A stretch of 64,000 bases of DNA, from assembly GCF_003751635.1 (NCBI RefSeq), contig NZ_RJVI01000001.1:259997-323996 (forward strand), read 5' to 3'. Below, one piece after another: positions 11,523 through 12,587 of this stretch. Made by a program: the position numbers and the translations under genes. How positions within the stretch are numbered: position 1 is the stretch's first letter; every line of letters begins with the position of its first letter. The DNA comes from Inmirania thermothiophila. Lineage in GTDB: Bacteria; Pseudomonadota; Gammaproteobacteria; DSM-100275. Under the pieces are notes generated by a model that was not told the DNA's origin, did no database searches, and saw nothing but the letters and a program-made list of their open reading frames with translations.

Positions 11523-12587
11523 ATGCGGGTGCGGGCGCTCCAGGTCCGCGACCTGCGCATCCTGGAGGCGGCGCGGCTGGAGCCCGGGTCGGGCATCAAC
11601 GTCCTCTGGGGGGCCAACGGGGCGGGCAAGACCAGCCTCCTGGAGGCGCTGGCGCTGCTGGGACGGGGACGGTCCTTCCGGGATCCGCGGGGGCTCGCGC
11701 TGGTGCGCCGCGGCGCCGGGGCGGCCACTGTGGCGGCGGAGGTGGAGGGGGAAGAGGGGCGGCGGGAGCGGCTGGGGTTGCGCCGCGACCGCGCCGGCAC
11801 CACCGTTCGCGTGGAGGGGCGGAGCCACCGCGGGGCGGGGGCGCTCCTCGGGCGGCTGCCCGTGGTGTGGATCCTCGGCGAGAGCTATCAGCTGGTGGAG
11901 GGGCCGCCGGCGCTGCGGCGCGAGCTCCTGGACTGGGGCGTGTTCCACGTGGAACCGGGCTACGCGGTGTGGATGCGCCGCTACCGGCGCGCCCTGCGCC
12001 AGCGCAACGCCGCCCTGCGCAGCGGAGATCTCGCCGCGGCCGCGGCCTGGGAGGCGCCGCTGGCGGAGGCGGCGGAGGCGGTGGCGGCGGCGCGCGCGCG
12101 CTACGTGGCGGGGTGGGCGGAGGCGGTGCGCAGGCTGGGGGTGAGGCTCCTCGCGGGGGCCGAGGTGACGCTGGCGCTGGAGCCGGGCTGGCGCGGCGCC
12201 CTTGCCGAGGCGCTCGCCGCCGGGCGGGCGCGGGATGCGCTCCTCGGGAGCACGCAGGCCGGTCCGCACCGGGCCGACCTCGCCGTGCGCTGGGCGGGGG
12301 CAGAGGCGCGGCGGCTCGCCTCCAGGGGCCAGGCGCGGCGTCTCGCCTACGCCCTCGTCCTGGGTCAGGTCCTGCTCACGCGGGAGCTGGGACGGGAGCC
12401 GCCGGTGGTTCTGGTGGACGAGTTCGCCTCGGAGCTCGACGCCGCCGCCCGCGCGGCGGTGCTGGCGCTGCTGCGCGAGCTTCGGGTCCAGGTCTGGATC
12501 ACCACCACGGAGCGTGCCGCGATCCCTCCCGAGGCGCCGGCGGCGTGGTTCCACGTGGAACAGGGCCGCGTCCGGCCGATGCTATAA
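11523..12587 (+). CDS. recF: DNA replication and repair protein RecF
   Basis: SMC-like ATPase that binds gapped DNA and helps load RecA with RecO and RecR. Walker A is GANGAGKTS at about residues 31-39. The ABC signature region and the Walker [13 protein letters not shown] near residues 296-307 are present; length 354 is normal. Two identical parS-type palindromes lie within the gene, encoding FHVEPG and FHVEQG. The last two codons are CTA TAA, which form the gyrB -10 box. The gene follows dnaN by four bases. Confidence 0.96.
11941..11956. other. parS-type centromere site 1 (inside recF)
   Basis: The 16-mer TGTTCCACGTGGAACC is a near-perfect inverted repeat around CACGTG and matches the chromosomal parS motif bound by ParB in pseudomonads and many other bacteria. 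It lies about 1.6 kb from the dnaA-dnaN gap, where parS sites are expected. Confidence 0.82.
12547..12562. other. parS-type centromere site 2 (3' end of recF, beside the gyrB promoter)
   Basis: GGTTCCACGTGGAACA is the exact reverse complement of the site at 11941, so both copies are the same 16-mer in opposite orientation, 606 bases apart. Its right end overlaps the position a -35 element would take for the gyrB extended -10 box at 12580-12588. Confidence 0.82.

Follow-up and report, generated by a model that had tools for sequence, protein, structure and literature searches.

Two copies of one 16-mer lie in frame within recF, in the gene order dnaA-dnaN-recF-gyrB (Table 1), in the window analysed here, a stretch of 64,000 nucleotides (C1:259997-323996). 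Site 1 is written by the codons GTG TTC CAC GTG GAA CCG, and site 2, which occupies recF codons 342-347 (WFHVEQ) with the stop codon 22 bases further on, by TGG TTC CAC GTG GAA CAG. The earlier note described the two as identical 16-mers in opposite orientation inside recF. Both copies are indeed exact and the exact cores are spaced 606 bases apart, but the 14-base core GTTCCACGTGGAAC is a perfect palindrome and the opposite orientation is therefore set by the outermost base alone and should not be taken for a functional inversion.

Table 1. Genes and putative parS sites of the locus, in window positions.
Feature	Position	Strand	Remarks
ORF containing dnaA	8530..10224	+	TIGR00362 593.4 bits, match from residue 129; origin side
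dnaN	10401..11519	+	Upstream neighbour of recF; TIGR00663 325.6 bits, match from residue 6 of the listed ORF
recF	11523..12587	+	354 aa, holds both sites; TIGR00611 304.8 bits, cut-off 172
Putative parS site 1	11941..11956	+	TGTTCCACGTGGAACC; recF codons 140-145, in frame, VFHVEP
Putative parS site 2	12547..12562	-	TGTTCCACGTGGAACC on minus, GGTTCCACGTGGAACA on plus; in frame with recF
gyrB	12619..15027	+	Downstream neighbour of recF; TIGR01059 1013.2 bits

The general parS consensus is the 16-base near-palindrome TGTTNCACGTGNAACA, and both sites fit it. Across the whole genome (2,608,718 bases in 5 contigs) the exact core GTTCCACGTGGAAC occurs at sites 1 and 2 only, with no place at one mismatch and three further places at two mismatches; the scattered copies that the earlier note had named as a refuting outcome are thus absent. 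Allowing up to three mismatches, the 16-mer matches the whole window at these same two places, whereas shuffles average 0.10 matches, in agreement with the earlier view that such a pair is unlikely by chance. The sites are few and clustered, with at most 2.5 kb between either exact core and the end of the dnaA reading frame, and a position near oriC is supported by the gene order of the sequence. The DnaA box TTATNCACA was found on neither strand between window positions 1 and 16000, around dnaA, and oriC was not located there; the sequence preceding dnaA is rich in GC. We also considered whether the segment might come from a plasmid and rejected this, as tblastn of RecF against a plasmid collection gave no match.

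The predicted ParB partner and known systems

A genome-wide search for parB, as the earlier note had advised, returned a single gene (C1:249180-249692, minus strand; 189.9 bits, cut-off 58.45), about 22 kb before the two sites. It is adjoined by rsmG and by a ParA-like reading frame whose best NCBIfam model, NF041546, scores 106.9 bits, under its cut-off of 180. The interval from rsmG/parAB to the window contains minus-strand reading frames (C1:251263-253709, or L037:9264-11710) that we take to resemble two subunits of indolepyruvate ferredoxin oxidoreductase. Over its DNA-binding part, ParB can be aligned to Caulobacter ParB 6t1f; with specificity positions counted by hand on that alignment, it carries R and G at R173 and G201 (Caulobacter numbering). 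These parS-type specificity residues are reported to be conserved in ParB and to read parS rather than NBS (PMC7383237). Noc, which reads NBS, belongs to a related protein family and recognises a similar palindrome (PMC7383237), but has Q and R at the specificity positions (Q173 and R201). The ParB reading frame also matches the Noc model TIGR04285, at 213.6 bits, below its cut-off of 315, and we rejected NBS as an identity for the sites on both grounds.

The object itself belongs to a kind known from Pseudomonas. The earlier note's match to the pseudomonad parS motif holds to the letter, as the 16-mer of site 1 is identical to that given for P. aeruginosa parS1 (PMC4368675), and parS1 and parS2 of that species are likewise described as lying within recF (PMC5521831). 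The parS of P. aeruginosa nearest to oriC are placed in recF, about 4 kb away from it (PMC3909081), and parS is reported as needed for segregation (PMC4368675). In P. aeruginosa PA7, recF contains both sites in frame, at the same pair of places. There are also differences: ten putative parS are reported for P. aeruginosa (PMC4368675), of which parS3 and parS4 are intergenic (PMC5521831), whereas there are exactly two exact cores here, both inside recF; and parAB of P. aeruginosa is put at about 7 kb from oriC (PMC3909081), whereas about 22 kb separate parB from the sites here. Caulobacter crescentus also has origin-proximal parS, a canonical ParB and parS within genes, and its Tn-seq hot spot for extra parS insertions spans recF and gyrB (PMC5815017). 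Its first two parS, however, mapped about 8 kb from ori, and its strongest five lie within a 5-kb segment (PMC5815017).

A scan of titled genome records gave 80 loci, 78 from Pseudomonas and two from Gammaproteobacteria, at about 40% identity; they hold two cores in 63 cases, one in 13 and three in four. The distribution of parS was reportedly surveyed in 2007. The 20 nearest relatives offered to us included none nearer than the same class and none of the same genus or family.

Both copies are very likely parS. We believe that the palindromes are, with high probability, the chromosomal parS centromere, that they are the predicted target of the ParB whose gene lies some 22 kb off, and that the coding of recF is apparently constrained by them. 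The earlier proposal of a segregation centromere near the origin is supported accordingly at the level of sequence, by the presence of two cores only, a single ParB gene and the order dnaA-dnaN-recF-gyrB. By analogy with other species, ParB would bind each site, load as a CTP-dependent clamp and slide onto neighbouring DNA; ParA would then move the ParB-parS complex, with the freshly copied origin region separating first. A purely regulatory role, a RecF-peptide origin and chance all rank below this centromere reading.

One of these alternatives is that the sites are ParB operators that mainly damp dnaA-dnaN-recF-gyrB and do not form a centromere. Excess ParB is reported to lower expression around parS1-4 in P. 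aeruginosa, and the authors suggest interference via parS1 and parS2 within recF (PMC5521831). In the same report, however, parB-null and parS-null mutants raised only PA0010-PA0015, near parS3 and parS4, and not the neighbours of the intragenic sites, and we consider a mainly regulatory role very improbable.

Codon choice in recF across the class

We surveyed 370 genomes of the class with the degenerate core GTTYCACGTGRAAC. At least one core occurred in 314 of them, recF scored above its cut-off in 296 and ParB was found in 349; as a control, GTTYCACGTGRAAC read backwards gave one match in 13 genomes and none in the rest (hand count). We then compared 131 recF genes, namely that of our genome and 130 others that were mostly the best-scoring listed, with some skipped and a few (e.g. 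G147 and G167) chosen for lacking the motif. Within the recF frame or up to 60 bases from it, there were two cores in 96 of the 131 genomes, three in two, one in 20 and none in 13; site 1 carried a core in 105 genes and site 2 in 106. Where two cores were present, their spacing (31 to 702 bases, median 621) was divisible by three in 92 of 96 cases. Eleven further genomes offered as relatives included nine with two or three cores in that same interval and two (G003 and G005) with none. Among 20 recF genes picked from a longer listing for other classes of the phylum, Caulobacter not among them, no core was found inside recF. Another genome from outside the class (G402, not one of the 20) has recF at C1:2772 and its cores far away from that gene, at C1:1080070 and C1:1082355. 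Genome G434 has 12 cores.

Another explanation would be that RecF requires a conserved FHVE peptide and that the palindromes merely follow from encoding it, with ParB uninvolved. FHV[E/K] is indeed present in 109 of the 131 RecF proteins at site 1 and in 110 at site 2. An in-frame core always encodes FHV[E/K], and the telling test therefore runs in reverse, asking whether FHV[E/K] is written with the parS codons. CAC-GTG-RAA is used for 106 of the 109 site-1 peptides and 106 of the 110 site-2 peptides. From the codon usage of recF, dnaN and gyrB in the same genome, as far as these genes were available, 8.1 and 8.3 would be expected (standard deviation 2.7 each, which gives no p-value since the rows are related and mostly top recF scores). 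Synonymous codons are thus nearly unused, which a requirement for the peptide would not explain. Glutamate at the sites is GAA in 182 cases and GAG in two, against 6406:4783 elsewhere in the available parts of recF, dnaN and gyrB. In our own genome these three genes use GAA six times and GAG 136 times, both sites nonetheless have GAA, and the three site codons have a joint probability of 0.024 per site.

The constraint extends beyond the peptide. The codon preceding FHV[E/K] ends in G in 218 of 219 cases and the one after it starts with C in all 219, giving the chemically unlike residues H, P, Q and R. Moreover, other residues replace FHV[E/K] in 22 of the 131 proteins at site 1 and 21 at site 2. 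The core is absent from site 1 in 26 genes and from site 2 in 25, and of these only four at each site encode FHV[E/K]. The best-scoring solved RecF, 8a8j, reads differently over the aligned stretch. Outside the class, FHV[E/K] stands at site 1 in none of the 20 RecF proteins; FHVE without a core does stand at site 2 in two of them (G408 and G459), a point in favour of the peptide, as it indicates that the protein tolerates FHVE. Under the centromere reading, FHV[E/K] with H, P, Q or R as the next residue would be a by-product that RecF tolerates and does not need. Counting against that reading, some genomes with both ParB and recF have no core in recF (e.g. G171, G332 and G049).

Sites in genomes that lack recF or ParB

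By the definition of no recF match better than 1e-20, 73 of the 370 genomes lack recF (hand count). At least one core is present in 39 of these and none anywhere in 34; the latter comprise 22 with ParB and 12 with no ParB match, presumably including G368. The 39 core-bearing genomes contribute 40 loci, in all of which a search for recF found none. In 28 of the 39, the dnaN-gyrB junction holds every core of the locus; 17 of these genomes have two cores separated by 25 to 106 bases and 11 have one. G070 has an extra core 13 kb further on. Three others (G011, G099 and G173) have a core beside gyrB with no dnaN found, and the remaining eight (G090, G197, G198, G283, G289, G350, G356 and G362) have neither dnaN nor gyrB in the locus, some of these loci being contig ends.

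Since 28 of the 39 keep a core where recF would be, the site itself is probably what is being preserved, and we propose that the sites would be selected as DNA at the dnaN-gyrB position. A palindrome in the junction of 28 genomes without recF also speaks against a need for the RecF peptide as its origin, which, together with the codon choice, leaves that explanation very improbable. A chance pair of 16-mers, for which we found no point in favour, is negligible in view of the 0.10 matches expected in the window at up to three mismatches, the same in-frame pair in recF of P. aeruginosa PA7 and the two cores in or within 60 bases of recF in 96 of 131 genomes.

A GyrB tree, built by a quick method from one partial gene, comprised 140 rows, of which 109 were recF-positive and 31 were recF-less loci with enough GyrB. 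The state of recF changes at least ten times on this tree, which is a rough figure, and the rows without recF form ten groups, some of them with a weak position. Supports on the tree range from 10 to 100, and family f97 appears in three places. The tree gives no direction between loss and gain; we infer that recF was lost rather than gained.

The core also tends to go with ParB. Cores are lacking in 15 of the 21 genomes without ParB, compared with 41 of the 349 genomes with it. The other six genomes without ParB do have cores, but each is assembled in at least 130 contigs, and its ParB gene may just have escaped assembly. Both recF sites have decayed, each differently, in two genomes of one family that lack ParB (G154 and G248); in G221, also without ParB, neither site is left, while a core persists at site 2 in G113.

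Four genomes with ParB and no core (G022, G147, G003 and G005; loci L183, L244, L290 and L299) were searched at one mismatch, and each carries a single-base variant that its two copies have in common. They were picked after the fact from the 41 ParB-bearing genomes without a core, one-mismatch sites having already been seen in their recF. In G003 the variant copies are in opposite orientations, so that the change alters the protein in one and is silent in the second. G005 has one copy in recF and another 3.5 kb away, and a further one-mismatch place, of a different kind, occurs in both G022 and G147. The backward control at one mismatch gave 2, 0, 1 and 1 matches in G022, G147, G003 and G005, respectively. 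As CpG-type changes are common, the paired variants seen in these sequences are suggestive and not proof.

For the class as a whole, we lean towards the view that a parS pair is held as DNA between dnaN and gyrB, dictates two RecF peptides, outlasts the deletion of recF and has copies that drift jointly with ParB. Our confidence in this wider pattern is only a little better than even because a junction site is found in only 28 of the 73 recF-less genomes and because the four variant genomes were picked afterwards. If it is true, a bacterial centromere can be fixed inside a coding gene, write part of the protein and remain once the gene is gone, and conserved RecF residues of the class should not be called functional before constraint on the DNA has been checked. 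It would also raise the question of why the dnaN-gyrB position itself is kept, and the paired one-base variants would offer natural test cases for the co-evolution of ParB and parS. The interest lies in this wider evolutionary pattern, of a centromere that shapes recF and outlasts it, which we do not claim to be unpublished.

The recF-less genome G099 displays an array of a different form. Just upstream of gyrB (L257:1287-1773), twelve exact cores GTTTCACGTGAAAC are arranged in tandem with an exact 43-base period, and two more decayed copies of the core are visible at this junction.
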